From Candidatus Eiseniibacteriota bacterium (lineage in GTDB: Bacteria; Joyebacterota; Joyebacteria; Joyebacterales; Joyebacteraceae): a DNA stretch of 64,000 bases. A program made the translations under genes and the position numbers. Below the pieces are notes generated by a model, which saw only the letters and a program-made list of their open reading frames with translations, did no database searches and was not told the origin of the DNA. Each line of letters opens with the position of its first letter. Within the stretch, counting starts at the first letter, position 1. Shown in pieces: positions 25,249 to 59,688 of this stretch. The DNA is taken from assembly GCA_030622115.1 (NCBI GenBank), contig JAUXGN010000013.1, forward strand, positions 1-64,000. The letters run 5' to 3'.

Positions 25249-25274
25249 CGCGGTGTCCTTCCGAATACGCTTCG

Positions 25275-39250: not shown

Positions 39251-41444
<2,194 letters not shown>

Positions 41445-41452
41445 AGTGGGGT

Positions 41453-43273
41453 CTAGAATTCGCGGATCAGACCTACGTGCAGTTTGCCGTCAAGGAGGCT
41501 ATCACCCTCACCCAGCCCATAGTCGATGGCAATTATACCCAAGCCCGTTTCGCCGCGCAACCCGATTCCGTATCCCAGCTTCGTACCCTTTGCGAAGTCA
41601 GGGCTCTGCCTGTAGAAGTAGCCGGCATCGACAAAGACTATCGCCCTCGACGTTCGTCCGAGCAGGAAACGGTACTCTACACTCCCGAGCGCCACCCGGG
41701 ACCCGCGGAACTGTTCTTCCTTGTAGCCGCGCAGGCTGTTTGCACCGCCGAGCGTGATCTGCTCGTGGAGCGGTATCTCATCCCGGCTGGAAGCCATCCC
41801 GGTAAGCTCGACGTGCAGGAAAATCACCTGAGCATCTCGGGTCGGGATCACAACATCGCAGTCGATCGCGAGGGCTCCTGTCCTGTAGCGCCCTTCAGTG
41901 TCCCTCACCTCCTGGTCGCGATACTCGAGCCTTCCACCGGCCCGAGCGCCCCGACTTGGATTCAGCGCATTGTCCAGCACGCTGTACTCGGCCTCGACGG
42001 CTGTTCTGTAGCCCTCGGTGGTCGACTCCTCCGCGCTTCCGGGAACGTAACGCTCGCTGCCAACCAACCAGGTGATGGTCGTGCGCGGGCCGAAATGCGC
42101 CGACACAAAGAGGTCTGCCTCCACCGTCGTGTAGAGCGTATCCCGTATCGCCTGTTCACCACGGACCCCGACATTGATGGGCGCGCCGAAGAGCCACGGT
42201 TCCTCGTATCTGAAGGTGATGCGCTCATGCCTGGACCGCAGTCGTTCCCACGACGCGGCGGCCTTTCTGCCTGTGCCGGCTATGTTCCCGAGACGCATGT
42301 CGATCAACCCGGTGAACTCTCCCCCGCCCTCCGAGTCGGGGGCGTACCCAAAAAGACCGGATATGCTGTTCACTGGACGCTCCGACACGACAATGCCCAC
42401 GGCCGCGTTTCCGGTCGCTGGATCGACCACGACGACCGGTTCAGCCACCTCCGAGAATATCCGGAGCCGCTCCAGCCGAGGACGGACGGCGTCCAGGATC
42501 CGCGCATCGTAGACAGCCCCCGGGATGATCCCTATCTCCCGGATAATCACCTCGTCACGCGTGAGATCGTTCCCGGAGAGAAACAGCTGTCCGAAACGAG
42601 TGGCCCGGCTCTCATCGATGGAGAGTTCCAGGGTGGGGCGCTGCACGGTGGAGGCCTCCATCCTGGAGGACTCTCCCTCCCGGGCAACCAGGATCCCGGG
42701 GGCAACGGTCGCAAAGGGATGGCCACGCGTGGCGTACCAGTCCAGGATGGAATGGATGTCGTCCTCAAGAGCCGTCAGGCTCAGCACATCTCCAGAACTG
42801 AGTTCCACCCGGCGTCTGAGAGCGGCCTCATCCGTTTCATCCACGCCAGTCAGGCGAACGGCGGCCAGCCTGGCATCAGGACCTTCATCTATCTCAACGC
42901 GGACCAAGAGGCCATCGGGACCATCCGTCCAGTTCATCTCCACCCGGCCAAAGGGACGCCCGCGCGTCACGAGCAACGCAAGGAGCGAGTCGGCTCCCGC
43001 GCGGGCGTGCGCGGCGCTGAACACTGCGCCGGATCTGAGGTCGAGCGCTCTTCCCGCCTCACGACGGCTCACGCTCTCGTGACCCCCGATCTCGACGCGC
43101 GCGATGAGGGTGTCGCCCGGAGCCTCGGCGCCGGGCGGCTGGGAGGCCGCTTCAACGTGGGTCCCATATCCCAGGAGCGCGCAGAAGAATACCGCGATGA
43201 TCACGCGCCCGTACCATGAGCGGCCTCTCTGGATCACCGTGCCGTAGCTCCCTGCTGTGCTAGAAGAATGCAT
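41453..43273 (-). CDS. BamA/TamA-like Omp85 outer-membrane assembly protein
   Basis: 606 residues. Signal segment near residue 25-42, POTRA-like domains over ~50-300 (e.g. TLIARVEIGGHESVSRREAG and FGQLFLSGNDLTRDEVIIRE), and a 16-strand-type barrel with the conserved lid-lock motif ANSLRGYKEEQFRG (~residue 510) and C-terminal aromatic LHVGLIREF. Only about three POTRA repeats are evident, so it may be a TamA-like or specialised paralogue rather than the main BamA. It overlaps the SprA-like gene by 14 nt and is the last gene of the envelope operon. Confidence 0.85.
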   Translation of the reverse strand: MHSSSTAGSYGTVIQRGRSWYGRVIIAVFFCALLGYGTHVEAASQPPGAEAPGDTLIARVEIGGHESVSRREAGRALDLRSGAVFSAAHARAGADSLLALLVTRGRPFGRVEMNWTDGPDGLLVRVEIDEGPDARLAAVRLTGVDETDEAALRRRVELSSGDVLSLTALEDDIHSILDWYATRGHPFATVAPGILVAREGESSRMEASTVQRPTLELSIDESRATRFGQLFLSGNDLTRDEVIIREIGIIPGAVYDARILDAVRPRLERLRIFSEVAEPVVVVDPATGNAAVGIVVSERPVNSISGLFGYAPDSEGGGEFTGLIDMRLGNIAGTGRKAAASWERLRSRHERITFRYEEPWLFGAPINVGVRGEQAIRDTLYTTVEADLFVSAHFGPRTTITWLVGSERYVPGSAEESTTEGYRTAVEAEYSVLDNALNPSRGARAGGRLEYRDQEVRDTEGRYRTGALAIDCDVVIPTRDAQVIFLHVELTGMASSRDEIPLHEQITLGGANSLRGYKEEQFRGSRVALGSVEYRFLLGRTSRAIVFVDAGYFYRQSPDFAKGTKLGYGIGLRGETGLGIIAIDYGLGEGDSLLDGKLHVGLIREF

Positions 43274-46200
43274 TGAGCCTCATATCGACCGTGTGCCTGT
43301 CATCGGCATCCGGACGCCTTTCTCCCGAGTAGGTCACACTCCCGGTCAGAAATCTGTTGAACCTGTAGTCGCCGGAGAGCCTCCATTCAGCCGAAGCTCC
43401 GGCTTGCCTTCCGTCCGCCATGTAGTTCGGCAGCGTTCCACCCGTGGCCTCCACTTGAGAGCGGGTAAGACTCGCACTCACGGCGCCCCGCCCTTCGAAA
43501 CGGTAGATCAAGGTCGGTGTGATCTGCCAAACCTCGACCTGGACGCCGGAGACCGCGTCACCCTCAAGCCCGTAGAGCACAGTCAGCTTGATCTCTCTAC
43601 CCCCCCCCAGTCTGTCCCTGACCTCGGCGAGGACGGAGTGCTCGTCCAGATCGTAGTCATCGAGGCTGCCACCAGCCTCTCTCTCCTTCACGGCAGTGTC
43701 ACCCTGAACGCGATACGAAATCCCTCCGGGTGGAGAGATCTTGAGTTCGAGAGTCCCGCTCCGCTCTCTGAGTTCCTCCGGGGAATTCGTGTAGACACGG
43801 TCCAGCCGGTCTCGCGTCTTGACAGCCATGCGCGCCGACAGGATCCCACCCGTTGTGTACCTCACGGTATGACGTCCCGTCATCTCTCCGGTAACCGTAT
43901 CCTCTCCTCTGAGCACGGATGGATTCAGAGAGTAGAGCCGCGCTTTGTCGCTGGTCGTTGTGGCTTCCCTGAGCTTCAGACTGGTCTCGAGCGACAGGCC
44001 CGACAGAAGGCGTTTCCACGCGCTCGGGTCCGGCATCCACCGGTCGTCCCGGGAGCTCCCTCCGAAGCGGAGCGACCACCTGGTACCGACAGACAATTCC
44101 GTCACGGGCAGGAAATCGCCGGTGGAGATGATGTGCGTCACCTCAACACCGTCCTCGTCGGTCACGAATCGCTCCTTCTCCTCCACCTCGGTGGCCGTGA
44201 CCGAGTACTTGAGTTCTCCCTTGAGGGCGTCGCTCATCGACCGATGCCCCAGCGTGATGGCCGCGAGATCGTACCTGGTTCCGGGCTCATCGAACCCCTT
44301 CGCAACATCGGTTCGTCTCCTCACGAGAGAGCCTTCGATCATGAGTGCCTCCCAACGCCTGAACTCGGCACTCATCTCCTCCGTTCTGGTCGAGGACGAC
44401 CTCGCCCATGCCTTTCCATCCGAGGTCCGTTCGGTGGCCCGGTAGCTCACCGCGATTCTGAATCCGCTGTCTCCGCTTCCGGAGCTCTCAATAGACGCTC
44501 CGTGCTCGTCGTAGCGCTCTCCGTCGTCGTTCTCAATGCGGGAGTCGTGCCTGTAGCTCAGGCCCGGCCGCACAGGTCCCAATGCGTAGCTTGCACCCGC
44601 GCGATAGAACTCCCGTTTTCTCTGAAGCGAGGAGTCGGCTCCAGCCCTGTACGTCAGATCAACGAAACGGGCGCCGGCCCACACGCTGCCGTGCTCAAGT
44701 GGACTTGCCGACATGGAGAACTCGGCTCGATTCGACTCGAGCACAGAAGCGCGTTCGAGGACACCCTGCGACAGCTCGATCGCGCCCCCTCCCGGCAAAG
44801 ACAGGGCCAATCTGCCTTCACCCAGAAGCTCATCTTCCGGCAGATCAAGGCCCTTGAGTTCCCATGCCTCCTCATAGCGCACATCTCTGAAGCGGCCTAC
44901 TCCCTCGAAGCTGCCTCCAACACGTCTGCCGACGAAGCCCACGGAGGCCTCGGTCCCGCCGAGGAAACCGACCTGAAGACCCGGTGTGGACGCGCGCAGC
45001 ACGACCGCGTTTCCCAGATTGTCATCGTCGTCCAGATCAGAGAAGGTGTTTCGATCGAAGCTCGAGACGGCAGCCTCGGCAGAGATGACCCCATCTCCTC
45101 CAAACTCCCACCGGCCGTCGAGCGCCGCGACAGCCTTGTCCTGCGGCATGGGGAGCGCCTTGCCCAAACGGAACTCGCCCGCTCCTTCACCCACGTAGAG
45201 GTAGAAGCCACCGAGGTAGTCGAGAGTGTACTCGCCGCCGCCAGTCCGTTCGAAACTCAGATCGTAGACTCCTGAATCAGCCCCCGCGTACTCGAAGTAG
45301 CCCTCCTGAGTCAGGATGTAGTCTCCGTTACCCATCCCGAGAGAATCGATGCCGTCATCGTGAGCCAGTTCGATATCGTCTCCAGCCGCTTCGAGGATGG
45401 CTCTGTGGCCTGCAGTAAGAGCGGTGGATAGGGCGCCTCCGCGGTCATCCGACTCGCGGATGAACCCGGCCCCTATGACGACATGCCCATCACCCGCAAC
45501 AAAGGTCGTTCTCCCTCCGTAGATATCTCTGTCGTAATCGCTCGTGGCGTACTCGTAGTCGGCGACCACCTCGCTGTCACCCGTGATGTGCTTGCGTTCG
45601 GTGAACTCGATCTCGCCCGAGGCGTAGTCTATCGTGTAGTCGTTGTCCTTCCCCCTCCTGAGCCTCTCCCCGTCGAGCCAGATGCGCTCGCTTCCCGCAA
45701 CCACCGTTATGCCGGTCGCGCCACTTCTGTCGGTGAGAGGATAGGGACCTTGCTTCCCTCCGATCCCGCGGAAGGTCATGCTTACGTACTCGCCTTCAGC
45801 GCGCGCGCCGGCCAACACGATCGCCGCTCTGCCCGCCTCTCCTCTGACCTTGACACCGGACAGATCCCGCCTCACACGCAGGAGGCTCCCCCCATCGATC
45901 TCGAGGATGTAGTCCCCCATTGTGGCCGCCATGTGGTCGCTCTCGATCTCGACCAACACCTTGTCGAGCGAACGAAGCTCCTCGGTGTCCCCTTCCGGAA
46001 CGAGTGGCGTGTTCTGATCCGAGAGGTAGGCGGTAACACTCACGTCGCGCGTGATCCTGCCTGAGATGTTCAATCGCAGCGACTGCTCCAATCTGAGGTC
46101 GCGATCGGATCCCACCGTTATGCCGAAGGTCTTGGCGCCGCCGACTTTGAGGGACGTCGATCTCTCCGGGGAGGCCGAGCCACCCTCCGCCACCACCATC

Positions 46201-46667
46201 GCGCCGGGCCCGCTGCTCGGGACACCGGCCCTGCCGGCCGCATCAACTCCTGCCGAATCAGGCATCCCTCCCATCTGCAGGAACACGTCCGGGAGTTGCG
46301 CCTCCGGATCGATGACTGACCGTCTGTAGACGGCGTGAGCGGGAACGGGGTAGTAGCGGTACCGGAGAATGATCCGAGCGTTCTCGGGAACGGCAACAGA
46401 AAACGCGAGCCGCCCGGTCGAATGATCGATGGAGTAGTCCAGGCCTCGCGCTGCCGCGCGCCCATCTATGAAGAGGGAATCACTGCCGGAGTAGACGAGC
46501 GCGTCCGGAAGAGTGATGCCGGAAGCGCCCTCGGCTCCCGAGAACTCAATCTCCCGTTCACCGCTTACGGCTGAGAGTCGGCCGGCAGGTGCATCCTGGA
46601 CGAACATCACGGAGAGAACGAGACACAGAACGATCACTGCCGGTGGTGGAAATGCGGTCCGATTCAT
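43260..46667 (-). CDS. Large SprA-like outer-membrane protein
   Basis: 1135 residues with a signal peptide (VIVLCLVLSVMFVQDAPAG). Residues ~60-360 have the pattern typical of SprA-like proteins: the repeated motif (G)xDYxIDxxxGxxxF (LDYSIDHSTGRLAFSV, NDYTIDYASGEIEFTE) and LRLNISGRITRDVSVTAYLS followed by DQNTPLVPEGDTEELR. The C-terminal ~600 residues are long alternating strands ending in VDMRLNAFF, consistent with a large barrel. Bacteroidota SprA, the type IX translocon, is about twice as long, so orthology is uncertain. It follows the NHL-repeat gene by 4 bp. Confidence 0.7.
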   Translation of the reverse strand: MNRTAFPPPAVIVLCLVLSVMFVQDAPAGRLSAVSGEREIEFSGAEGASGITLPDALVYSGSDSLFIDGRAAARGLDYSIDHSTGRLAFSVAVPENARIILRYRYYPVPAHAVYRRSVIDPEAQLPDVFLQMGGMPDSAGVDAAGRAGVPSSGPGAMVVAEGGSASPERSTSLKVGGAKTFGITVGSDRDLRLEQSLRLNISGRITRDVSVTAYLSDQNTPLVPEGDTEELRSLDKVLVEIESDHMAATMGDYILEIDGGSLLRVRRDLSGVKVRGEAGRAAIVLAGARAEGEYVSMTFRGIGGKQGPYPLTDRSGATGITVVAGSERIWLDGERLRRGKDNDYTIDYASGEIEFTERKHITGDSEVVADYEYATSDYDRDIYGGRTTFVAGDGHVVIGAGFIRESDDRGGALSTALTAGHRAILEAAGDDIELAHDDGIDSLGMGNGDYILTQEGYFEYAGADSGVYDLSFERTGGGEYTLDYLGGFYLYVGEGAGEFRLGKALPMPQDKAVAALDGRWEFGGDGVISAEAAVSSFDRNTFSDLDDDDNLGNAVVLRASTPGLQVGFLGGTEASVGFVGRRVGGSFEGVGRFRDVRYEEAWELKGLDLPEDELLGEGRLALSLPGGGAIELSQGVLERASVLESNRAEFSMSASPLEHGSVWAGARFVDLTYRAGADSSLQRKREFYRAGASYALGPVRPGLSYRHDSRIENDDGERYDEHGASIESSGSGDSGFRIAVSYRATERTSDGKAWARSSSTRTEEMSAEFRRWEALMIEGSLVRRRTDVAKGFDEPGTRYDLAAITLGHRSMSDALKGELKYSVTATEVEEKERFVTDEDGVEVTHIISTGDFLPVTELSVGTRWSLRFGGSSRDDRWMPDPSAWKRLLSGLSLETSLKLREATTTSDKARLYSLNPSVLRGEDTVTGEMTGRHTVRYTTGGILSARMAVKTRDRLDRVYTNSPEELRERSGTLELKISPPGGISYRVQGDTAVKEREAGGSLDDYDLDEHSVLAEVRDRLGGGREIKLTVLYGLEGDAVSGVQVEVWQITPTLIYRFEGRGAVSASLTRSQVEATGGTLPNYMADGRQAGASAEWRLSGDYRFNRFLTGSVTYSGERRPDADDRHTVDMRLNAFF

Positions 46668-46670
46668 GAA

Positions 46671-47624
46671 TCACTCACAGGCGTCGTAGACGAGCTCGAC
46701 CCGGATCACGCGACCCTCGGCTCGATCGAGCACGAGCAGGCGGCCGTTGTCATCAAATGCCAGACCGACCGGCTCAAGAGCCGGGGGTAGGGAGTCTCCG
46801 CCAAGCGCGACGGCCGTCACCATCCGACTCCTTGCACCGAACGCGACAATGCGGTGTCCCTCGGCGTCCGCAGTGATGAGATTGCCGTAGGCATCAAATG
46901 CGACAGCGCATGGTCGAAAGCGCTCTCCCGGCAGTGCGACCTCATAAAGCTCCGAGCCGAACTCGTCAAAGACGTGAACAACTCCGGCCCCGGGATCAGA
47001 CACGGCGATCTGCCTTGATGGTCCCATTACGACGCCGCACGGCGACACGAACACGCCGGCTCCATCTCCGAAGCCACCGAGAGGCTCCAAGGCTTCGGCG
47101 AACTGCGAATAGACGATGACAGCCTGCTCGTCCTCATCGACGATGAGAAGCTCACCTCCGCTCCCTATCGCAATGCCGATCGGGGCGCTCGTCTCATCCT
47201 CATCCACGATCCGGCCCAGGTAGTTGCCGCGCTCATCGAATCGTTCCACGCGCCTGTTCCCTTCATCGAGAACGTAGATGTAGAAGCCGGCGTAGACGGC
47301 CAGATCCGTTGGGGTATCGAACTGCCCCTCATCCCAACCGTACCCCCCGAACTCCATGACGACGTCGCCCGTTTCCGAGACGACGAGAACACGGTTGTTG
47401 CCCGAATCCGCGATCACCATGTTCCCACGGTGATCAATGGCCAGGGCTTGGGGGGAATCGAGACCCCACTCTCCGCTTCCCGGCGCCTCACCAACAGGCT
47501 CAAAGCCGATTACGAAGCGGGAATCGTCGACCGTCGCAAAGACGTCAACGTCGGAGGAGTAAACACTGCCGGCAGCAGCAAGGAGGCAGCCGAGCACGAA
47601 CAAGCATGTTCTGGGATAGTGCAT
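46671..47624 (-). CDS. Secreted NHL-repeat beta-propeller protein
   Basis: 317 residues with signal peptide (LFVLGCLLAAAGSVYS). Several NHL repeats follow: LDSPQALAIDHRGNMVIADS with GNNRVLVV, FDTPTDLAVYAGFYIYVLDE and FRPCAVAFDAYGNLITADAE, enough for a six-bladed propeller. Such propellers usually bind proteins, carbohydrates or peptides outside the cytoplasm. ATG at 47624 behind GGAGGGCTC. In many FCB genomes NHL proteins are associated with envelope or gliding-related gene clusters; the partner here is unknown. Confidence 0.8.
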   Translation of the reverse strand: MHYPRTCLFVLGCLLAAAGSVYSSDVDVFATVDDSRFVIGFEPVGEAPGSGEWGLDSPQALAIDHRGNMVIADSGNNRVLVVSETGDVVMEFGGYGWDEGQFDTPTDLAVYAGFYIYVLDEGNRRVERFDERGNYLGRIVDEDETSAPIGIAIGSGGELLIVDEDEQAVIVYSQFAEALEPLGGFGDGAGVFVSPCGVVMGPSRQIAVSDPGAGVVHVFDEFGSELYEVALPGERFRPCAVAFDAYGNLITADAEGHRIVAFGARSRMVTAVALGGDSLPPALEPVGLAFDDNGRLLVLDRAEGRVIRVELVYDACE

Positions 47625-47696
47625 GAGCCCTCCACTGGAAGTGAACCCGGGGATTCGTGGGGAGGGACAGAAGGGGAAGCGGGCCGCAAGAGAACG

Positions 47697-48533
47697 CTAG
47701 AACGACATTTCGAGGGTCACCTGGCTGCCTGGAAATCCGCGCTCGTCGATAATGGGTGCGACAAAAAGCCTGGCGTGCGGCTCGTCCTTGAGACCCTGAT
47801 TGTGCCTGCGCGCCATCCAGGCGCTGTCGATACCGCTTATCGCGCGGTTCAGGACCGCGAGCCCGAGCATGTGGAACGCATTCTTGCGTGAGAGCGATGC
47901 GCTGTGGCGAAGATCCAGGTACTCGGAGAACCGCGCCTTGCTCTCCCACCCCCAGCCCGTATCCCCAAAGTAGCCGTTCTGTGCGAAGTACTCGTTCTGA
48001 GCGTCCAGGTCATCCGGATAGAGACTGCGCGCCTCGCTCCTTATCCCCTCATTGTAGCTGTCCTCACCCTCACTGCGGATGTAGTCGGCGATATCCTGAT
48101 AGTATTCACTCGTCGCGCCATGCGCCACACCGGCGAAGACGAAAGCGAACTCCTTGTAGTCCTCCTCGCGCATGCTGCCCTGGATCTCAAAAGAAGCGTA
48201 CCCAACCCATATGGCGCCCTCGGCCGCCATGAAGGCCCTTCCACGGCCATCGTTCCCCGTATACATCTCACCCCACCCGGGCAGAACCATGGACATGAGA
48301 AGAGCAACCATCGGATTCTTCACATCTCCACCGGATGCCAACACTGGCGGTCTCCTGCCGTCTCCATTCAAATCGGGATCGGTCGGACTCCGGGTCGCAT
48401 CCAGGGAGAGCCCACTCAACTCGAGTCCCGCGCGCGCGCCTTGCGCAAGCTCCAGGTCATCAATTGCCGCGGCCGCACGAGCTCCCGATATGAGCAGCGT
48501 GATGGCCAGAAGAGCTGTAACGGTGCGATTCAT
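47697..48533 (-). CDS. Small envelope protein, DUF5683-like (paralogue 2)
   Basis: 278 residues. Signal peptide, then a hydrophobic hairpin (PMVALLMSMVLPGWGEMYTG, GRAFMAAEGAIWVGYASFEI) with the PGxGE motif seen in DUF5683-type proteins, and a second hydrophobic segment (RKNAFHMLGLAVLNRAISGI). It aligns along its length with the upstream neighbour. Start ATG at 48533 with GGGGTGG nearby; an ATG at 48545 overlapping the neighbour's stop is an alternative. Function unknown. Confidence 0.75.
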   Translation of the reverse strand: MNRTVTALLAITLLISGARAAAAIDDLELAQGARAGLELSGLSLDATRSPTDPDLNGDGRRPPVLASGGDVKNPMVALLMSMVLPGWGEMYTGNDGRGRAFMAAEGAIWVGYASFEIQGSMREEDYKEFAFVFAGVAHGATSEYYQDIADYIRSEGEDSYNEGIRSEARSLYPDDLDAQNEYFAQNGYFGDTGWGWESKARFSEYLDLRHSASLSRKNAFHMLGLAVLNRAISGIDSAWMARRHNQGLKDEPHARLFVAPIIDERGFPGSQVTLEMSF

Positions 48534-48544
48534 GCGCCACCCCA

Positions 48545-49396
48545 TCAGTAGGTCGCCACGAAGGCTACGCTGAGACCGGCCGCATCGTCGGGCACCCCGA
48601 ATTCGATACCGACGTCGGCGGCAGCAGTGTGGTTCGGAGTCCCGTGTCCTCCGGCCAGAATGAACGAGTCCACGGCGCTCACGATGTGATTCAGAAGCGC
48701 GGCCATCATGAAATACCGCGCCTGTTTGAGAGATGTATTGCTGTCTTTCCTCATGCCCCAGTACTCGTTGCGGAGCGCCAGTGCTCCCGCGGTCGGCTCG
48801 TTCGGAACGCCGTCGCCACCCCACCATGGCCAGTAGACATCGTACTTGCCTATGTCTTCGTAGAACTCCTGCGATCCGAAGTCGGCCAGCGGTCTGCATC
48901 CATTGGCGTAGTCGTGGGGGGATTCGGAACAGTTCTCGTTGTAGAACTCGATGTAGCTATCGAGGTCCCAGTTGGCGTCTGCGAACAACTCGTAATCGCC
49001 CCGCTCGTCCATACCCTGCTTGTCCAGAACGTAGAACCCGCTCCACATCGCGACCTCAGCAAGAAGGAAGAGGTAGCCCCGTTTCTCGCCCTGCAGGAGT
49101 TCGCCACTACCGGGGACCGCGAGCGACGCGAGGAACATCATCAAAGGACTGTGCCCGGACTCGACTGTGGCCCCGTCGGATCCGCCGACCGACAGTAACT
49201 CGGACCTGGCATCAAGCGATGAGATCAGCACGAAATCCGCCCTTGCGCTCGTCCCCTCCGGCACAGCAGCGCCACCGCAAACACCAGGCACAAGTGCCGC
49301 AATCATGGCACACATGACAGCGAGCCTGGCCGAATGCCCGAGTGCGGGTCTCACCATGTCGACAAGAACGACCTTTGCCTGCGAAGTCACTATCAT
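48545..49396 (-). CDS. Small envelope protein, DUF5683-like (paralogue 1)
   Basis: 283 residues, with signal-like segment at ~25-45 and the shared core PLMMFLASLAVPGSGELLQG, GYLFLLAEVAMWSGFYVLD, then YEDIGKYDVYWPWW and ARYFMMAALLNHIVSAVDSF. The matching order of motifs in the next gene shows tandem duplication of an ancestor. GTG at 49390 is better spaced from GAGGGG than the ATG at 49396. Overall topology suggests two to three membrane helices plus a periplasmic or surface domain. Function unknown. Confidence 0.75.
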   Translation of the reverse strand: MIVTSQAKVVLVDMVRPALGHSARLAVMCAMIAALVPGVCGGAAVPEGTSARADFVLISSLDARSELLSVGGSDGATVESGHSPLMMFLASLAVPGSGELLQGEKRGYLFLLAEVAMWSGFYVLDKQGMDERGDYELFADANWDLDSYIEFYNENCSESPHDYANGCRPLADFGSQEFYEDIGKYDVYWPWWGGDGVPNEPTAGALALRNEYWGMRKDSNTSLKQARYFMMAALLNHIVSAVDSFILAGGHGTPNHTAAADVGIEFGVPDDAAGLSVAFVATY

Positions 49397-49402
49397 ACCC
49401 CT

Positions 49403-52400
49403 CTATTTGACGACGGCGATCTTCATGATCCTCTGCTCGATCCGCTCTCTCTCTCTCAACTCCCCGAGAGGCGTAGGAATACCCACGCGCGCCTCGACAC
49501 GCACCAGATAGAGCCCACCGGCGATAGAAGATGTGTCCCAGACGTACTCGTTCACCGTCGGGATGCCATCAATGTCCACGCTCTCGATCACCTGCCCCGT
49601 CACGTCCAGCATCTCGATACTGAGTTCGGCTGCCTCCTCGAGATAGACGCGAACGGTAAGCTCCGGACCGTCCGCCGGATTCGGATAGCAGTAGGTGCGC
49701 TCGATAGCCATGAGCGTCTCTGTTTCATCGTACGCACCAAAGAGGAGCGAATCAGCATAGCAACCCGTGCCTGCGGCGTTACCTCCCTCGGTCGACCAGA
49801 CGATTCTCTCATTGGAACACTCGACAGGCATCTCATAGAAGAGGACCCGTCCGCCTGCACCCGCGACCAGAACGTCCAGTTCCCCGTCGCTGTCGACATC
49901 CCCGATCCACGGTGTGCCGAGCGAGACATCCGACGAGAGAGGCCAGCCCTCCAGCATCTCCCCCGTCACACCATCCCATGCGAACAGGCTACCGCCCGGT
50001 CCTCCGATGACCACATCCGTGGTCCCATCGGAATCGATATCACCGACGAGCGGCGAGGAGGGCGTGGCGCGCAGGCTGTCACCTGCCGAGAACCCCAGGG
50101 GCCAGTTCTCGACGGCCGTTCCGTTCATCCTGATACCGATCACGCTCTTTCTGCCGGCCGGAACGAGTATCTCAAGGTAGCCATCGCCGTCGATGTCGCC
50201 GAGAGAAATCCGCCCGACGATCTCGGCGCCTATATCGACGGGCCAACCAGGAAGCTCATTGCCGCCCGAATCCCACGCATGGATGATGCCGTCTGATCCT
50301 GCCGCTATTACCTCCGGACGACCGTTGGGGGTCCGGTCTATGTCACCTATCACAATGCCCGCGGTTTCCTGGATCCACGAGTCCACAATGATGGGCCAAC
50401 CGGAAAGCGCTGTTCCATCCGATCGAATGGCCGCGATCCAACCTCTATTGGTGGTCGATATCACCAGCTCGTCCGCGCCGTCACCGTCAAGGTCACCGGC
50501 GGCGATCGTCACATCGTCCAGGGTCAGATGACCGAACGAGTAGGGCGAATAGCCGATGTGCTCGCCGCCGGCATCGACGATCGTGACCTGCCCTCCCCGA
50601 GACACGGCCGCTATCTCAGGTTCTTGGCCGGCCTCGAGCTGCGCTACGAGAGGAGCTCCACTGGCTGGACCACCTATCGAGAGCGGAAAGCTGTCCGAGA
50701 CAAGGTCGGCGATCCCGTCGCCGCGATCGTCCCGTCCGTGCCAGGCGTACAGGAGACCATCGTCGGACGCGACGATCACCTCGGCCGCACCGTCGCCATC
50801 AAGATCCGCTAGAGCGGGCGCATGTGAGATACCCCCGGGAGCCATGGCGATGAAGCCGAACGGTCCCGCGCAGTCGGGGATCACCGGTGATCCGTCGGCG
50901 TGCCACGCGTAGACCAGGCCCGTCGTCGTGGCCACCACGACATCCATCTCGCCATCGCCGTCGAGGTCCGCGACGCGCGCCGTCAACTCACCTACGGCGT
51001 CCTCTACCTCTATCGGCCACCCGTCCTTCCATCGATCGAAGTGTATCGACGCCGTCATGATGGAGTCAGAGTCCGAGATCCCGGAGATCGAGATGTAGCT
51101 CTTGGCTCCTGAATTGTCATCTGTCGAGGGGAACGTATCCCAGGAGAACGTGTCGTTGTTGTCGGCGAAGAACGGATCGTACTTGCTGCCCGCCCAGTAA
51201 AAACTGGATATGTTGCCGATGTCCATGATCCCATCGGCCTCCTCGACGGCGACGCCAAGGCGATGTCGATCGGCATTGACCCAGTTGTACGGAAGGAGTC
51301 CCGGCGTCACGCGCGTGTCGTCCACGTGGTAGATGAGAAGCCCGGGGCCCGGAAGCAAGAAGTCGTATTCGTGATTGACGGGACATATGGGATCCTGGCA
51401 GTTGGGATCGACCGGACCCAGCACGACACCCCTCTCCTGCTCGATGGCAACGAGGTTATCCTTGCCGATGTCATCCATGCGGTTCTCAAGAAGGAAGTAC
51501 TCGGTGCTCGTTATCGGGATCTTGAAGAGCCTGGCGTCTCCGCTTCTGAGAACGGAAGCTCTGATGGAGATCTCCTCAGTCTCCTCGGTGACAACCACGG
51601 GATCCGTCCACCCAAGGTACTGGAGCGACCATCCGCAGGGCGGAACCGGAATGAGACCGTATGCCCACCCCCACGGCGTGTTCATGCCGATCCGTCCGCC
51701 GGAGTCCATGAGTCCCCAGTAGCCGATCGCCGGGTAGAAATTGGAGGTGTTGTACAGATCGGGCAGCCCAATGATGTGAGCCACTTCGTGCGCGAGCGTC
51801 CCATTCAGAACGATGGTGAGTCCGTCCTGACTAGAAGTCTCGGGCAAGATCGCCGCACCCCAGATCTCGTGCGTGCCTTCGTTCACAAGGATAGGTTCAC
51901 CGAGCGAGATGTGCGCCGAGGGAAGATCGTAGGGCGAGTTCCGATACACGTCGCTCTGCCAGTCAGCACCGGCGTGAAAGACGACGTACCCATCGTATTC
52001 GGCGAAGTCTATGTTGTCAGTCGTGTCGGCGGCCGCGAAGGCATCGCGTATGAAGGACTCCACCTGACTCACGTACCAGACCTGCTCTTCCGAGTAGTCG
52101 TGATAGTAGCCCATATCATGCGGCAGCACGTATGCCTCACCGGAAGCGGCCGGAGCAACACTGAACTCCAGGTCGAGCGCTCCGTGTGAGACGGATTCGT
52201 AGTAGCTCTCAAGCGCCGTCATGTGAAGCTCGAAATACTCCAGGTCGTGCGGCGGACCATCGAAAGTCGCGCCGTCCCACTCGGAGAGATCAAAAGTGCC
52301 GTCTCCTGTGCTCAGCGGGTCCGAATCGGGCTGAAACTGCACGCGAAAAGCCAGAAGTCGCACGAGCGTGCGGTCGCCATCGCCACGTCCTCTCGCACGA

Positions 52401-52576
52401 GCCAGTTCTATGGCACTCACGCGGGCCGGCTGGCTCGGGTAGTATTTGGACGTGACCGCCTGGAGTTCCTCAAGATCAACCTCACCGCTCTTGCTACAGA
52501 TAAGCGTTGACGCCGCGCCGGCGGGAAACGCGGTCGCAAGCAGTATCACAACAAGAATGGCCGCGCTCAATCTCAT
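49403..52576 (-). CDS. Secreted M6-family metalloprotease with FG-GAP-like repeats and type IX-style sorting tail
   Basis: 1057 residues. Signal peptide (RLSAAILVVILLATAFPAGA). The M6 zinc-protease domain has the full motif HEVAHIIGLPDLY with His263, Glu264 and His267. About six FG-GAP/VCBS-type repeats follow (VADLDGDGEMDVVVATTTG, LADLDGDGAAEVIVASDDG, AGDLDGDGADELVISTTNR), each with a DxDxDG calcium loop. The last ~90 residues (YCYPNPADG near residue 960, then IEMLDVTGQVIESV and IAGGLYLVRVEA) match the T9SS type A sorting domain. ATG at 52576 behind GGAGGACGAG. Encoded beside PorV- and PorU-like proteins, so it is the likely cargo of that system. Confidence 0.9.
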   Translation of the reverse strand: MRLSAAILVVILLATAFPAGAASTLICSKSGEVDLEELQAVTSKYYPSQPARVSAIELARARGRGDGDRTLVRLLAFRVQFQPDSDPLSTGDGTFDLSEWDGATFDGPPHDLEYFELHMTALESYYESVSHGALDLEFSVAPAASGEAYVLPHDMGYYHDYSEEQVWYVSQVESFIRDAFAAADTTDNIDFAEYDGYVVFHAGADWQSDVYRNSPYDLPSAHISLGEPILVNEGTHEIWGAAILPETSSQDGLTIVLNGTLAHEVAHIIGLPDLYNTSNFYPAIGYWGLMDSGGRIGMNTPWGWAYGLIPVPPCGWSLQYLGWTDPVVVTEETEEISIRASVLRSGDARLFKIPITSTEYFLLENRMDDIGKDNLVAIEQERGVVLGPVDPNCQDPICPVNHEYDFLLPGPGLLIYHVDDTRVTPGLLPYNWVNADRHRLGVAVEEADGIMDIGNISSFYWAGSKYDPFFADNNDTFSWDTFPSTDDNSGAKSYISISGISDSDSIMTASIHFDRWKDGWPIEVEDAVGELTARVADLDGDGEMDVVVATTTGLVYAWHADGSPVIPDCAGPFGFIAMAPGGISHAPALADLDGDGAAEVIVASDDGLLYAWHGRDDRGDGIADLVSDSFPLSIGGPASGAPLVAQLEAGQEPEIAAVSRGGQVTIVDAGGEHIGYSPYSFGHLTLDDVTIAAGDLDGDGADELVISTTNRGWIAAIRSDGTALSGWPIIVDSWIQETAGIVIGDIDRTPNGRPEVIAAGSDGIIHAWDSGGNELPGWPVDIGAEIVGRISLGDIDGDGYLEILVPAGRKSVIGIRMNGTAVENWPLGFSAGDSLRATPSSPLVGDIDSDGTTDVVIGGPGGSLFAWDGVTGEMLEGWPLSSDVSLGTPWIGDVDSDGELDVLVAGAGGRVLFYEMPVECSNERIVWSTEGGNAAGTGCYADSLLFGAYDETETLMAIERTYCYPNPADGPELTVRVYLEEAAELSIEMLDVTGQVIESVDIDGIPTVNEYVWDTSSIAGGLYLVRVEARVGIPTPLGELRERERIEQRIMKIAVVK

Positions 52577-52621
52577 CTCGTCCTCCGCCCCTCTCATTCG
52601 ACAATCGGTGACTCAGATACT

Positions 52622-52672
52622 TGCGCCGGCACAATCGGGCACCATCTGCCGAGTGCCTGGCTTGCCGGCGCA
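52622..52672. repeat. Nested inverted repeat between PorV-like and M6 protease genes
   Basis: Outer arms TGCGCCGGC (52622-52630) and GCCGGCGCA (52664-52672) pair over 9 bp; the loop contains a 5-bp inner hairpin GGCAC/GTGCC (52638-52642 with 52653-52657). It falls 17 bp after the PorV-like stop, in the 112-bp gap. It may attenuate or process the transcript so that PorU/PorV and the cargo protease are made at different levels. Confidence 0.6.
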
Positions 52673-52688
52673 GAGTGTGGTTGCTTTC

Positions 52689-53672
52689 TCAGAATGTCGC
52701 AGTCAGCGAGAACCTGAACGGACGCTTGAGTCCTTCTGCCTGCGGAACATTTGCAAGATCGAACGCGAAGTTGCGGTACTTGAGTCCCATCCCGAACGCG
52801 AAGTCCTTAACCTCACCGTCCTTATCGTACACATAGCCGGCGCGCAGGCTCAGAAGATCGAAATACCGATACTCAGCACCGAGATTGATAATGACACCCG
52901 TGGACTGATCCACGATATCCTCGATGATGACAAGCGACTTGTTGTAGTCGGCACACACCATGAGCTTGTTCATCTCATCCGATATGAGCATGTAAGAAGC
53001 ACCGGCCTTGAGATTCCGCGGCAGAGGATCGGACTGTTCTTCGTCAATGTACGCGATCCTCGGCCCGACGTGCTGCAAGGCCCCACCCAGCCTGAGCGTA
53101 CCGTCCCACATCCTGTAGAGCACGCCCAGATCGGCCGCGAACGTCGTCCCCGCACCCTTCTGCTGATCCTGCGTGTATTGGGCAGGGGCAAGATTGACAT
53201 AGACGAACTTGAGATTGAGACCTAACGCCAGATTGTCGGTCAGGAGAGTGCCGTAGGCTACGGACGGGATTATCTCATAAGAACTGAACGTGCCTATTGG
53301 ATCCGGGCTGTCCGGATCCGTAGCTATCTGCTCGCCGTACGTCAGATAGATCAAAGATGCCCCGATCGTGCCCAGCCCCTCGATCCGCTGCGCGTACGCC
53401 GCATACTCGTAGTAGACGTCGTCCCAGTCGGGAACCAGCTGCGTATGCATGAGCGTCACGTTGAACTCGCTCTCGATGAACGCAAGTCCGGCGGGATTCC
53501 ACGAGACTGCGCTTGCATCCTCCGCGACCGCCACGTAGCAGTCGCCCATTCCGGCCGGCCTGGCGCCCGGTTGAATGTAGAGCGACTGAGCTCCACCGAT
53601 CGACACCTGCGCGTGTGCCGGCAGAACGATCGTGAGCGCCAGCAGTCCCAGAAGCACCTTTGTTCTCAGCAT
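52689..53672 (-). CDS. PorV/PorQ-like outer-membrane beta-barrel
   Basis: 327 residues. Signal peptide (LLGLLALTIVLPAHA), then the family start GGAQSLYIQPGARPAGMGDC followed by YVAVAEDASAVSWNPAGLA, shared by PorV, PorQ and FadL-like barrels. It ends in FRFSLTATF, a barrel C-terminus. In Bacteroidota PorV escorts type IX cargo to the PorU sortase. ATG at 53672. Immediately downstream of the PorU-like gene, an arrangement also found in Bacteroidota. Confidence 0.85.
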   Translation of the reverse strand: MLRTKVLLGLLALTIVLPAHAQVSIGGAQSLYIQPGARPAGMGDCYVAVAEDASAVSWNPAGLAFIESEFNVTLMHTQLVPDWDDVYYEYAAYAQRIEGLGTIGASLIYLTYGEQIATDPDSPDPIGTFSSYEIIPSVAYGTLLTDNLALGLNLKFVYVNLAPAQYTQDQQKGAGTTFAADLGVLYRMWDGTLRLGGALQHVGPRIAYIDEEQSDPLPRNLKAGASYMLISDEMNKLMVCADYNKSLVIIEDIVDQSTGVIINLGAEYRYFDLLSLRAGYVYDKDGEVKDFAFGMGLKYRNFAFDLANVPQAEGLKRPFRFSLTATF

Positions 53673-53705
53673 GTCCCGGTCTCTCCCCTCGGTTATCTAC
53701 TAGAA

Positions 53706-56700
53706 TCATCTCATGATGACGGCTCTGCCGATCGCCTCGGCCTTGTCGCCACGGTAGCTCTTGGACACGGCGGAAATCTTGTACAGATAGACTCCGTTGG
53801 CCAACTCATCTCCCACGTGATCCCGACCGTCCCAGAAGACCTGATTGGCTCCAGCGGTCGCGTCAATGTCGTCCAGCGTTACGATTCTCCTGCCTCCCAC
53901 CGTGAAGATGTCGATCCTGACGTCCGCTTCCACCGACAGCTGGAAGAGTATGTGAGTGCCTTCTCTTCCTACGTCAGGGAACGGATTCGGGTGGTTGGCA
54001 ACATTCCGTATCTCGAAATCCGCGGTCGTGATGACTTCGAACCAGAGATCCTCACTCCGCCTGTTTCCAACGTTGTCGCTCGCGGAGAGCGACAACGAAT
54101 GCCCGCCGAGCGACATCGATGGAAGATCATACTCAAACGAACCCTCGCGGAAATCCCCGAGGTCGCAAATGAATCGATCCGTCAGATCGGTCGAATCGCC
54201 GCTGTCGATCTGCAGGATGATGCCACGTCCTCTACCATCTGTCGCCAGGTTGATTCCGCTGTCGTCAGAGAGTGAGATCGCCAGAGTCGCGCTCGGCAGA
54301 ACCGACACGCCACCCCCCTCGAACTCAAGAGCAATATCCGGTCCGGTGTGATCCGAGACATCCACCGAATCCACGAGTGCCACGTTCTCAAGCGAAAAGG
54401 CCCCATCTGTGTCGCTGCCGTAGCCGTATCCACGAATCCTCGCGTGCGAGCCCTCGCGTGCCGCGGTCGAGACGACGAACTCCACCGACAGACTGCCGTC
54501 CGAAACCACGACCGGTCCTCGGAAGATCGTCTCTCCCGGAAGTGAGTATTCGACGTGATGTCCGCTTGACGCCTGAGTGTACCCTGTCGTATCTGCGCTC
54601 TCCGTGACCCGTATGAGCGCAACCCCGTTCAGGCTCTCGATGGCGCCGCTTCCCTCACCATCGATCTCAATCGTCGCTCCGCGCTTCATCGGATCGAGAT
54701 CCTCGGAAACGAGAGCGCCGCCGCCTGCCGGCGCTGCCAGGGTCAAACCCGGGTCGCCCAGCACCACGAACTTGGAGTTGTTCCACCATGAGGTCAGTGA
54801 GCTCCACATTGAGAATGCCGTCTGGAACGCACACCCCACATCCATCACGGCCTCAGGGCTTGTCAGCTGGTATCCAAACACGGCCCCGAGGAAATCGCGG
54901 TTGAAGTTGGCGTTCTGGCTGGCCCCCGAGTCCCGCGTGCTTCCGATGGAGATGATCGAGCCTCCCCTCGCGGATTTCGCCAAGGCCTCACCCAGGGAAT
55001 CGACGGTTTCGTTGTCGAACTTATTCAACCTGCACGAAGCCGCAAAGAACAGGGGAAGGGCATCAATGTTGTCCAGAAGCGAGACGTCGTCGTACAGAAA
55101 GACCGACTCATGGGCGATGACGATCTCGCTGCCGTGCCCCGTGTAGTTCATGAGGATGGCGCCTTCACTCCAGGCGTCGATGACGGCGGCCCGAGCTGCA
55201 GGCTTCATCGCCCCCACTTTGTCGTATTCCATGAGATAGATCTTCTGCCGGTCCACAGGAAGCGGCAGCACATCAGTGGCTATCTGCTCCGTTTGCACGG
55301 TGTGCATCCACTCGGAAGAGCTGTTGGACGAGTACTCATCATCGGCCAGGAGAATCGCCGTGTTCTTCCAGAGGCCCGGTTGAGCCGCCAGTTCGTAGCG
55401 CTCGATCTTGTCCACCATCGTCACCGCTTCCGCTACCGTGTCAACAGACAGCCGCCCGAGAGCGATGTCCATATCACACTTGTTGGTATCCGCGAAGCAA
55501 ACGTACCAGATGTCGGTCGGCCAGTATGACGGTTCGAATGACACAGCCCCTCGGAGTGTATATCTGACGGGAATGTGCGTGGGGAGACTTGATGAGGCGT
55601 ATCCTCGAGGATCAGACGTCCCGCCACCGATCAGAATCGCATGAGTGGGCGGTATGATCTCATTCTCCCAGGTGAACTTGAAGTAGTCCCTGATGGCGGC
55701 CGGATCGACAAGCCCCCATGAGAACTCGTCGTAGACATCGGAGACCTTCACCAACCGGACGTCGAAGTTCCCCCCGTCTGCGCTCTCCCTGAGATTCTTG
55801 AGCCGCACGGCCTCATCATAGAACGCGTCGTGAGCAACCATGAGGTAATCGTGTCCACCCGGCGTCCTCAGGTCCGTAGGCTCATCCAGCTCCAGTGACG
55901 GCGTCAGATACGCCGATGATGAGATCGCCGCGTACGATGCTGTGTCCGCGGCGTCGTCCTGGAATACAGCGGCGCCGTCTCTCCCGACGATTCCACGCGA
56001 AACACCCGGTATCGTTCGGACGGTGAACTTGTCGATGATCTTGTAGACTGCAACATCCGTATCCTGAAACCCCGCGACGGTGTACTCCACAATCCCCGCT
56101 CTGCCAGAGCTTCCGAAGAAAGCGCGATCACTGGTCGCGACCAGATCCCTCCAGTACGTGATATCAAACCAGTCGATGTAGATCGACTCGTCGGTCGCTC
56201 CGGGAATGTCTCGCGGGATGTAGACCTCAAGCGTGTTGTAGCCCTCGTTGATGGAGATATCACGGGCGTCAAATCTCATCTCGTAGTAGCTGTCCCATGA
56301 GGCGTCGTGCGCCTCCTCTCCGTTCAGAGAGAAGATCACGTGGTGATCCGGGCTGGGCACGAAGGAGCTGTTCCCGTAGACGCTCACCGCGAGACCGCCC
56401 AGCGAATCGACCCTGACGTGGTCCAGCTGCTCGTGGAAGTAGCGACGACTCTCACTCTTCGTCATCTCGTGCCAGAACCAGTTATCCGACCTGCCCTGAC
56501 GAATGAGTATGTTGCGCTCGAAGTGCGCGCGCACTCTGTGAGCGTCAGCGTGGATCGGCGTCGGCGAGTTCTGTAAGTCGTCGTCCTCCATACGCAGCGG
56601 GTCGGCACTGAATCCCGACGATGTGCCCTCATTCTCCCACGTCAGCCAAGAGACACCCTCGTTCGCGAAACGGTTCTCGTGGTAGGGCTCCTCTGGATTC

Positions 56701-57731
56701 TCAACGTCGAACTCAGACGACCACCCGTCGGCGCCCAGCGCGTAGAAGATCACACGGTCACTGGGATCGAATGAACCATCCTCCTCACCCGGGACGAGAA
56801 TCGTGCACTCATCCATCCAGTCCGCACGTGGTTCGAGCACCGAAGGCGGCATCGACAGGCCACCCCCGCTGAATACCCGCATGGTTGCGGGATCGATCGA
56901 GCCGGCTTGAACTCCGAGAGAGATGAGCGCCTCGTAGGAGACGCTGTAGAATCCCCCATCCGAAATCGACATCTTCACCCAGTTGGTCGACGTGCTGAAG
57001 GAATCGCCATCGCGACGACCGGAAGCTTCCAGACCGCCACCGACACGACGCCAGGCCCTACCGCTGTCATAGTTCAGGAGGGCCGTGCGAAACATGTTCT
57101 CCCGTCTCGGCGCATCGGCGCGTGGACGACCGTCTTCACTTACGGCGCCTTCCCTGAGCCCTGCGAATGTCAGCCTCGCCTCGATTCTTCCTCGCGAGAC
57201 CAGAGTGTTCAAGGCTGGGTCGAACTGAACAGGATGGAACTCGACTACGACAACGCGCTGGGTCGCGAACCACCTGGGACCTTCGAGGCTTGCGATCGAC
57301 GGGGGCCAGAGACCGGCTGTCTCATAGATGCTCCCCTCCTGCCGTTCATGCCGGCCGAGTCCGCCTGCCGGCACCGGCACGACAGACTCAGATGGAACCA
57401 CCCGAACCCCTTCGGTCAACTCGATCCCGTCCGTTGTCAACCGGAGTTCGACTGCTTCGCAGTCGGGAACAGCAAGCATGACTCTGATGCACGGGAGGTC
57501 GGGACTGCCGGGAACCGCCGTCGACTGCGAGTGAGGCAGTGCAACCGAGACGTAGTTGCGGTCGGCCGCCGTGAGAGCCGTGAGAATCGGCTTCCCGGAC
57601 TCGCACACGAGGGTAATGCCGACCTCGTTCGACTCCACCAGAGTTACCGATACCGCCGCCACGGGATCTGCTGAAGATACAATCCAGATCACCGACAGCA
57701 CAACTGCCGGAAGAAGGCTTCTGTACTTCAC
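53706..57731 (-). CDS. porU: PorU-like C25 (gingipain-family) peptidase, type IX sortase candidate
   Basis: 1341 residues. Signal peptide (LLPAVVLSVIWIVSSADPVA). The C25 domain covers about residues 600-960 with the catalytic His866 in NYTGHGSEIVIAHES and Cys900 in FFAASCRLNKFD, both intact. Ig-like and sorting-tail-like modules follow, including HPNPFPDVGREGTHILFQL and the FlgD-like ANGVYLYKISA. PorU cleaves type IX sorting domains and attaches cargo to the surface. GTG at 57731 behind GAGGAGG overlaps the CBS gene by 4 nt. The symbol is tentative: a secreted C25 protease with another role is possible, but PorV and a tailed protease next door favour PorU. Confidence 0.8.
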   Translation of the reverse strand: MKYRSLLPAVVLSVIWIVSSADPVAAVSVTLVESNEVGITLVCESGKPILTALTAADRNYVSVALPHSQSTAVPGSPDLPCIRVMLAVPDCEAVELRLTTDGIELTEGVRVVPSESVVPVPAGGLGRHERQEGSIYETAGLWPPSIASLEGPRWFATQRVVVVEFHPVQFDPALNTLVSRGRIEARLTFAGLREGAVSEDGRPRADAPRRENMFRTALLNYDSGRAWRRVGGGLEASGRRDGDSFSTSTNWVKMSISDGGFYSVSYEALISLGVQAGSIDPATMRVFSGGGLSMPPSVLEPRADWMDECTILVPGEEDGSFDPSDRVIFYALGADGWSSEFDVENPEEPYHENRFANEGVSWLTWENEGTSSGFSADPLRMEDDDLQNSPTPIHADAHRVRAHFERNILIRQGRSDNWFWHEMTKSESRRYFHEQLDHVRVDSLGGLAVSVYGNSSFVPSPDHHVIFSLNGEEAHDASWDSYYEMRFDARDISINEGYNTLEVYIPRDIPGATDESIYIDWFDITYWRDLVATSDRAFFGSSGRAGIVEYTVAGFQDTDVAVYKIIDKFTVRTIPGVSRGIVGRDGAAVFQDDAADTASYAAISSSAYLTPSLELDEPTDLRTPGGHDYLMVAHDAFYDEAVRLKNLRESADGGNFDVRLVKVSDVYDEFSWGLVDPAAIRDYFKFTWENEIIPPTHAILIGGGTSDPRGYASSSLPTHIPVRYTLRGAVSFEPSYWPTDIWYVCFADTNKCDMDIALGRLSVDTVAEAVTMVDKIERYELAAQPGLWKNTAILLADDEYSSNSSSEWMHTVQTEQIATDVLPLPVDRQKIYLMEYDKVGAMKPAARAAVIDAWSEGAILMNYTGHGSEIVIAHESVFLYDDVSLLDNIDALPLFFAASCRLNKFDNETVDSLGEALAKSARGGSIISIGSTRDSGASQNANFNRDFLGAVFGYQLTSPEAVMDVGCAFQTAFSMWSSLTSWWNNSKFVVLGDPGLTLAAPAGGGALVSEDLDPMKRGATIEIDGEGSGAIESLNGVALIRVTESADTTGYTQASSGHHVEYSLPGETIFRGPVVVSDGSLSVEFVVSTAAREGSHARIRGYGYGSDTDGAFSLENVALVDSVDVSDHTGPDIALEFEGGGVSVLPSATLAISLSDDSGINLATDGRGRGIILQIDSGDSTDLTDRFICDLGDFREGSFEYDLPSMSLGGHSLSLSASDNVGNRRSEDLWFEVITTADFEIRNVANHPNPFPDVGREGTHILFQLSVEADVRIDIFTVGGRRIVTLDDIDATAGANQVFWDGRDHVGDELANGVYLYKISAVSKSYRGDKAEAIGRAVIMR

Positions 57732-58198
57732 TGGGAGTCCTCCTCGCCGGCAGCACCCGTGAACGCAGAACTCACAGCACTCCGATTGATGACGCCGACA
57801 ACACGGTTCTCCTCGTCGACCACGGGCAAAAGGACATGCTTGTTGTTGAGCATTATGGCAGCGACCTTCATCATGGATGTTCCGGGACCGACCGTGTGTG
57901 GGTCGACATGCATAATATCCTCAGCAAGGAAAAGCGTCGGCTCGATCTCCGACATGGTTTGCGCCTCGATCGTTTCAAGATCATCGACAAAAGCGAGATC
58001 GTCGAACATCGAGAGATAGTGTGGAAGGAACACGTTTATGAGCTCTTCATGCGTGACGACGCCGAGCAGGCGACCGTCCTCATCGACAACGGGGACGCCG
58101 GTGATTCGCTGGCGTCTCAGAAGATCCGCAATCTCGGCGATGTTCGCCGATCGTCCGACGGTAACAACGTTCGCCGTCATGTAGTCGCGCGCCTTCAT
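57728..58198 (-). CDS. CBS-domain pair protein
   Basis: 156 residues with two CBS motifs (YMTANVVTVGRSANIAEIADL and DIMHVDPHTVGPGTSMMKVAA), forming a Bateman module that normally binds adenine nucleotides. No catalytic domain. ATG at 58198 behind GGGGGAAC. Translationally coupled to the PorU-like gene; a regulatory link with energy status is speculative. Confidence 0.87.
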   Translation of the reverse strand: MKARDYMTANVVTVGRSANIAEIADLLRRQRITGVPVVDEDGRLLGVVTHEELINVFLPHYLSMFDDLAFVDDLETIEAQTMSEIEPTLFLAEDIMHVDPHTVGPGTSMMKVAAIMLNNKHVLLPVVDEENRVVGVINRSAVSSAFTGAAGEEDSQ

Positions 58199-58245: not shown

Positions 58246-58704
58246 CTATTTCACCGAATCGAAGAGCCTGAGCACGTCTTCCACTGAGTCCGTTGAGAGA
58301 AGCCGCTCTCTGTTTCCCTCGTCCTTCATCAGAAACGACATGTGTGCCATCAGATTGAGATAGAGCCGCGACGGTTCCTGCTCCTTGGGCGCCCCAATGA
58401 GAAAGACGAGTCGCACGGGATTTCCATCCAGGGCCCCGAACTCCACGTCTCCTGTTGTGCGCCCGAACGCGAACACCACATCGCGCACGGCCTTGCTCTT
58501 CGCATGAGGGAACGCCACCCCGTGGCCCACCCCCGTTGACACAAGCTCTTCTCTAGCCAATACATCATCCAGAAAGGCGCCGGCATCCGTGACTTTCTTG
58601 GAACGCGATAGCAGATCCGTCATGCGTCCTATCACTTCTTCTTTGGTGCCGGACGTGACGCCCAGATTCACGAGCTTGCGATCGGTAAAGGCTGACAGCT
58701 TCAT
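58246..58704 (-). CDS. PTS EIIA (PtsN-like) domain protein
   Basis: 152 residues of the PTS EIIA type 2 family with the phosphorylatable His67 in GVAFPHAKS, and family segments LVSTGVGHG and KEQEPSRLYLNLMAHMS. Single-domain EIIA proteins are usually regulatory (nitrogen-PTS type). No EI or HPr gene is in the window. ATG at 58704 with AGGAG 11 nt upstream. Placed between accA and the CBS protein. Confidence 0.87.
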   Translation of the reverse strand: MKLSAFTDRKLVNLGVTSGTKEEVIGRMTDLLSRSKKVTDAGAFLDDVLAREELVSTGVGHGVAFPHAKSKAVRDVVFAFGRTTGDVEFGALDGNPVRLVFLIGAPKEQEPSRLYLNLMAHMSFLMKDEGNRERLLSTDSVEDVLRLFDSVK

Positions 58705-58718
58705 AAGGGAGAGAACTC

Positions 58719-59675
58719 CTACGCTTCCTTGTACTTGCCCATGTTCATGAATTTCTCGAGTCTGCGATCAACAAGTTCGGTCGGGCTCAGCTTCTCAAGT
58801 TCGCTCAGGTGCCGCTGGATCGCCTCGCCGACATTGCGCGCCGCCATCTCGGGATCCCTGTGCGCCCCACCCACCGGTTCGCGGATGATCTCGTCTATCA
58901 CACCGAGTGATTCGAGATCCGGCGCAGTTATCTTCATCGCCTCTGCGGCCTGTTGCGCCTTGGCGGCGTCTCTGTAAAGGATGGATGCGCAGCCCTCGGG
59001 TGAGATCACGGAGTAGATCGCGTACTCCATCATAAGAATACGATCACCAATAGCGATGCCCAGCGCCCCACCACTGCCACCTTCCCCGATCACTACCGCC
59101 ACAAACGGCACGGGAAGACGTGCCATCTCACGTAGATTCAGAGCGATCGCTTCAGCCTGTCCGCGCTCCTCGGCTCCGATGCCGGGATACGCGCCCGGTG
59201 TATCCACAAAGGTGATGATCGGACGATTGTACTTCGCCGCCAGCTTCATGAGTCTGAGAGCCTTGCGATAACCCTCAGGGTGAGCCATGCCGAAGTTGCG
59301 CCTGATGTTCTCCTTCGTGTCCCTGCCCTTCTGGTGACCTATCACAACCACCTTGCGGTCGCCCCAGAAGCCAAATCCACCGACAATGGCCGCATCATCG
59401 CTGAAGCGCCTGTCGCCGTGGAGTTCGACGAAATCTATGCCCAGCATCTTCAAATAGTCCAGCGTGTACGGGCGACGCGGGTGACGCGCCAGCTGTGTCA
59501 TCTGCCACCGCGTGAGCTTCCCATAGATCTGCTTGCGCAGCTCACCTGCCTTCGCCTCCAGCCGTGCCAGCTCGCCGGCTACATCAATGTTCTGGCTGTC
59601 CGCGAAGCTCCTGAGCTCATCTATGCGCCGTTCCAGCTCCAGAAGGGGCCGTTCGAACTCAAGCCAGCCTATCAT
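58719..59675 (-). CDS. accA: Acetyl-CoA carboxylase carboxyltransferase, alpha subunit
   Basis: 318 residues, family length. The N-terminal helical region ([20 protein letters not shown]) and crotonase-like core ([69 protein letters not shown]) are standard. With AccD it transfers CO2 from carboxybiotin to acetyl-CoA for fatty acid synthesis. ATG at 59675 follows GAGGGGAGG; an upstream extension to 59717 overlaps the previous gene. accD is not in the window. Confidence 0.95.
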
Positions 59676-59688
59676 CCAGAACCTCCCC

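Follow-up and report, generated by a model that had tools for sequence, protein, structure and literature searches.

The window analysed here, the whole 64,000-nt stretch of the Candidatus Eiseniibacteriota contig, carries on its minus strand a closely packed run of genes for PorU- and PorV-like proteins, a tailed M6-family metalloprotease, two small membrane proteins, an NHL-repeat propeller, a large SprA-related protein that we call hSprA, and an Omp85-superfamily protein (Table 1). From PorU to the Omp85 gene (57731 down to 41453) the intergenic gaps range from -14 to 91 bases. The five proteins named by an earlier note on this DNA (all of the above except the membrane pair and the propeller, which its list lacked) are real minus-strand open reading frames, and the GC content that it called high is 60.7% for the window. 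It had also put accA at the head of the operon; accA does lie upstream in the same run, but the PTS EIIA-like and CBS-domain-like genes intervene before PorU. Downstream of the module lie ligA and thiC (named by eye from their translations). Elsewhere in the window, positions 23875-26879 encode a PilS/PilR-like two-component pair.

Table 1. Genes of the PorU-to-Omp85 run and its neighbours (positions in the window)
Feature	Position	Strand	Evidence and remarks
ligA, downstream neighbour	39251..41257	-	identified by eye; kept across phyla
Omp85-superfamily protein, POTRA repeats and barrel	41453..43273	-	PF01103 71.6 bits, PF07244 68.2 bits
hSprA, 1135 aa, probable large outer-membrane barrel, SprA-related, separate unnamed family	43260..46667	-	similarity to SprA of the same genome; predicted fold
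NHL-repeat beta-propeller, apparent signal peptide	46671..47624	-	PF01436 61.5 bits
DUF5683/DUF6677-like small membrane protein b	47697..48533	-	start 48545 or 48533; within longer ORF 47697-48899
DUF5683/DUF6677-like small membrane protein a	48545..49396	-	Pfam matches below cut-off; motifs common to several phyla
M6-family metalloprotease, FG-GAP repeats, type A-like C-terminal sorting tail	49403..52597	-	PF05547, PF13517, PF18962 above cut-off
PorV, FadL-type outer-membrane barrel, putative shuttle/attachment partner of PorU	52689..53672	-	NF033709, PF19572
PorU, C25 cysteine peptidase/sortase, Propeptide_C25 and C-terminal Ig-like tail	53706..57731	-	NF033707, PF01364, PF08126
CBS-domain-like gene	57728..58198	-	identified by eye; 4-base overlap with PorU; neighbour kept, syntenic in relatives
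PTS EIIA-like gene	58246..58704	-	identified by eye; neighbour kept in relatives
accA, upstream, same collinear run	58719..59717	-	identified by eye; 14-base gap to next gene; conserved in relatives

PorU scores 533.9 bits to the NCBIfam type IX sortase model NF033707 (cut-off 420) and 249.7 and 58.8 bits to PF01364 and PF08126, respectively, and has P. gingivalis PorU as the closest solved structure (6za2, E 1.7e-33). The intact His866 and Cys900 that had been noticed in this peptidase are invariant in an alignment of nine sequences, one of them from another phylum. PorV, described earlier as a PorV-like barrel, passes the cut-off of the PorV/PorQ family model NF033709 (243.5 bits against 90) and misses that of the strict PorV equivalog NF033710 (178.6 bits against 250); it also scores 91.6 bits to PF19572 and matches the PorV chain of the SprA complex (6h3i_F, E 7.3e-24). 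The genome as a whole holds 25 matches to C25 peptidases, some cut by contig ends, and 18 to the PorV family, seven of them above the cut-off, with some PorV genes adjoining genes for tailed proteins.

Several features of these two families can be recorded alongside. In the window PorV, the probable signal-peptide cleavage site is followed by a glutamine, which agrees with the Q-rule of Bacteroidetes. PorV proteins of the Zixibacteria type carry an insert of about 520 residues directly after the NPAGL motif (L122:1231-3849, L124:1356-3992 and L094:3766-6447), which in the L094 protein gives weak matches to two-component-regulator propellers and LysM and may represent a PorZ-like module built into PorV. 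A second PorU-like C25 protein (L251:11836-15558) reaches 269 bits where the PorU cut-off is 420, and its tail end is of the PorU type rather than the cargo type.

The metalloprotease was said to bear a type A-like sorting tail, and it does, matching Por_Secre_tail (PF18962) with 29 bits against a cut-off of 27. It is probably active, judging from its sequence, because its metal-binding motif, HEVAHIIGLPD (HExxHxxG), is intact; the motif is present in 34/34 of the orthologue rows listed in which this region is covered, with the same genome standing behind more than one row in some cases. Its best NCBIfam match is NF052323, a family of T9SS-dependent, M6-like inactivated metalloproteases with a similar C-terminal tail, but we rejected membership, as the score of 389 bits falls short of the cut-off of 600 and HExxH is kept in the window protein and in every listed orthologue with the region.

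Proteins with such tails are abundant in this genome. A count of them had been suggested as a check, and the tail domain, found with a FlgD_ig-type profile, gives 112 matches, 100 of them above the cut-off. All 60 of the matches translated from known coordinates lie at the extreme C-terminus, with the protein ending at most 24 residues past the domain and, in most cases, in a KMVLLK-like motif; for these 60 we therefore rejected the reading as flagellar FlgD. Of 30 further matches, 28 show the tail in a pattern search, and in 26 of the 28 exactly 19 residues lie between GxY and the end; this is weaker evidence than the 60 traced by position, since these were picked by pattern. The tail ends of the window PorU and M6 proteins (AVIMR and IAVVK) are unlike the bulk.

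A full-length sprA, also proposed as something to look for, is present on another contig (C74): the protein runs for 1966 aa up to the contig end and scores 547.4 bits to TIGR04189 (cut-off 200). Adjoining SprA at L015:13098-14003 is an M28-family lipoprotein that, read from its sequence, is glutaminyl cyclase-like. The earlier note had reasoned that, if PorK, PorL, PorM, PorN and PorT and further tailed proteins were all lacking, the window genes would be isolated family members and not a secretion system. Recognisable PorK/L/M/N were indeed not found, which speaks for that reading, but it is contradicted by the full-length SprA and the roughly 100 C-terminal tails that this genome also encodes, and we regard it as very improbable. 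Because the genome combines this SprA with C25 and PorV-family matches and 100 terminal tails, we take the system to be a real type IX-like one, as had been suggested for this high-GC, non-Bacteroidota genome, and not a set of stray family members.

The presence of a full-length SprA also changes the status of the half-length SprA-like protein in the window. The earlier note was right that it resembles SprA, but it belongs to a different family, and since the true SprA is encoded elsewhere in the genome hSprA is not a cut-down translocon; that candidate was rejected. It is about half as long as SprA/Sov (1135 aa against about 2000-2400 aa), gives only a short match of 26.1 bits to TIGR04189 (cut-off 200), and coexists with SprA. 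No Pfam or NCBIfam family exceeds its cut-off for hSprA, and a profile search of the PDB returned nothing. With SprA of its own genome it shares a weak, collinear similarity that includes the N-terminal repeat region (31.9 bits; E 1.6e-12 with this SprA as the only target). Its AlphaFold model (pLDDT 82.1) is a large beta-rich barrel whose top Foldseek matches are SprA chains (6h3i, 8gl6; E 5.7e-10, with a TM of only 0.25), and the strands listed for the model would suffice for a barrel of SprA-like size. In all probability, hSprA forms a barrel with a SprA-like fold in the outer membrane, and the adjacent Omp85 protein may assemble it.

Lengths of hSprA are mostly about 1080-1250 aa, in a list filtered to 1050-1300; the Effluviviacota-type rows form one clade with a support of 100 (SH-aLRT, quick search), and hSprA identity outside the taxonomic family of this genome is about 22-26% (Krumholzibacteriota, Zixibacteria and one Latescibacterota locus included). 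In the tree, the hSprA of one MAG with the label Rickettsiales (L156:9554-13027) is of the Bacteroidota type and nests with Marinoscillum; the label is probably wrong. In two Bacteroidota of the Cytophagales type (L168:6241-9654 and L174:5958-9644), a sensor-kinase-like long membrane protein, identified by eye, overlaps the start of the hSprA frame.

The Omp85 protein reported earlier is confirmed by PF01103 (cut-off 24). The DUF5683/DUF6677-like proteins have a PGxG...G.kRGy and an E/W motif conserved across phyla, and protein b is modelled with long helices (pLDDT 80) and has no significant PDB match in a fold search; we rejected it as a motor subunit, its match to the PorM periplasmic domain (E 0.55) being noise. 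From their linkage, the NHL propeller, the two membrane proteins, hSprA and the Omp85 protein would be accessory envelope parts of the module.

The gene order is conserved well beyond this genome. Of the named loci, 23 contain six or more of the nine module genes, and every one of them keeps the order PorU-PorV-M6-x-x-NHL-hSprA-Omp85-LigA on one strand. These loci span Effluviviacota, Krumholzibacteriota, Zixibacteria and relatives, and one Latescibacterota locus; the named relatives come from one genome scan with hSprA and are mostly labelled Ca. Eisenbacteria or 'bacterium', with L107 labelled Ca. Effluviviaceae. The layout is non-textbook, as the earlier note had it, when compared with type IX secretion in Bacteroidota, but it is no peculiarity of one genome. 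We found no paper describing the PorU-to-LigA operon in the open-licence literature.

Conservation of this kind bears on whether hSprA and the Omp85 protein might serve envelope biogenesis as a pair, sharing no more than the operon with the other genes and having nothing to do with secretion. Such a pair would fit the Bacteroidota and Balneolota loci, where hSprA occurs without the other module genes, and the presence of housekeeping genes (ligA and accA) in the run. What weighs against it is that the order with PorU and PorV is kept over several phyla and that SprA exceeds its cut-off in 19 of 20 hSprA-bearing genomes, a set chosen for hSprA only; the exception is a Latescibacterota chromosome with SprA pieces below the cut-off. 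We lean against a separate biogenesis role while granting it a substantial chance.

A rotary GldLM motor is described as the power source of type IX secretion. The homologues of PorK, PorL, PorM and PorN that had been proposed for a search were sought in this genome and none was found above cut-off; GldM gave no match at all. Across 41 genomes, profile searches returned no GldL or GldN above cut-off and, for GldK, nothing beyond sub-cut-off matches to its FGE domain; the positive control covers GldM only. That control comes from the 20 named, hSprA-bearing genomes, where GldM is found in 7/7 Bacteroidota (268-407 bits) and in 0/13 others. One of these 13 belongs to Balneolota and the other 12 are of Krumholzibacteriota, Zixibacteria, Latescibacterota or Effluviviacota types; 12/13 have SprA above its cut-off. 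Judged by these profiles, the GldLM motor and GldKN ring of type IX systems appear to be missing here, and loss, replacement or strong divergence may account for this.

As for divergence, profiles built on Bacteroidota may miss diverged proteins. Even SprA scores only about 500 bits here, whereas the tested genomes of Balneolota and Bacteroidota give 1545-2755, so that further components could have diverged still more; the sub-threshold FGE-domain matches to GldK also speak for this. A complete type IX system with PorK/L/M/N too diverged to recognise comes close to an even chance without reaching it. Against it stands the split in GldM, which is lacking even in Gracilimonas (Balneolota; L142:9965-15674), where SprA still scores 1545 bits. 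In that genome hSprA is directly followed by ExbB-ExbD-ExbD, and the genome of the window has three ExbB/TolQ loci, one of them on a contig (C8) that also carries PorV paralogues. Export might be energised by a complex of the ExbB-ExbD-TonB or Tol type, or by folding and cargo capture alone. We consider this unlikely: the Exb/Tol sets resemble general TonB/Tol machinery with no direct link to SprA, and the Gracilimonas arrangement is one neighbourhood in one genome. As an energy source these loci are only a lead.

Our preferred reading, to which we would give a probability of roughly 80% on the strength of sequence comparisons, is that the window encodes the module of a type IX-like secretion system that matures the cargo and attaches it to the cell surface. 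Building on the observed gene content, catalytic residues, tails and gene order, and by analogy with the translocon model for Bacteroidota (PMC10994853), we can outline a route. About 100 cargo proteins would cross the inner membrane by Sec and then the outer membrane by way of the full-length SprA, guided by their C-terminal Ig-like tails of about 75-90 residues. PorV would receive the exported cargo, and PorU, using Cys900 and His866, would cut off the tail and anchor or release the protein. The tailed M6 protease would probably itself be exported by this machine and may process other cargo. Export along this route would not be powered by a recognisable GldLM motor.

The system shares with type IX secretion in Porphyromonas gingivalis and Flavobacterium johnsoniae the PorU His/Cys pair, PorV, a full-length SprA and many proteins with Ig-like tails, whereas it has no recognisable GldK/L/M/N, sets PorU-PorV within a run with the M6 protease, two membrane proteins, NHL protein, hSprA, Omp85 protein and LigA, and has cargo tails that match the FlgD_ig profile. 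We see it as a variant of type IX secretion that has the type IX core, an operon conserved across phyla and a barrel family without a name; because the motor was looked for and not recognised, full membership should not be assigned. In a 2016 survey type IX secretion was confined to Bacteroidetes (PMC4793230), whereas a paper from 2024 holds that it may also occur in some other FCB phyla (PMC11285876); for the seep phylum Ca. Effluviviacota, the main text of the describing paper does not contain the term 'T9SS' (PMC11323493).

A broader proposal can be put forward tentatively, and we rate it as rather doubtful: that a motor-less type IX variant, which has neither GldLM nor the GldKN ring, draws on another energy source and includes hSprA as a conserved second barrel of SprA fold, occurs widely among FCB candidate phyla (Effluviviacota, Krumholzibacteriota, Zixibacteria, Latescibacterota and perhaps Balneolota). 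If true, a motor-less system of SprA, PorU, PorV and cargo in a set of phyla would uncouple translocation from the motor, whose contribution would become testable by comparison. Finally, hSprA represents an unnamed, conserved barrel family that is present in Bacteroidota too, where genetics is possible.
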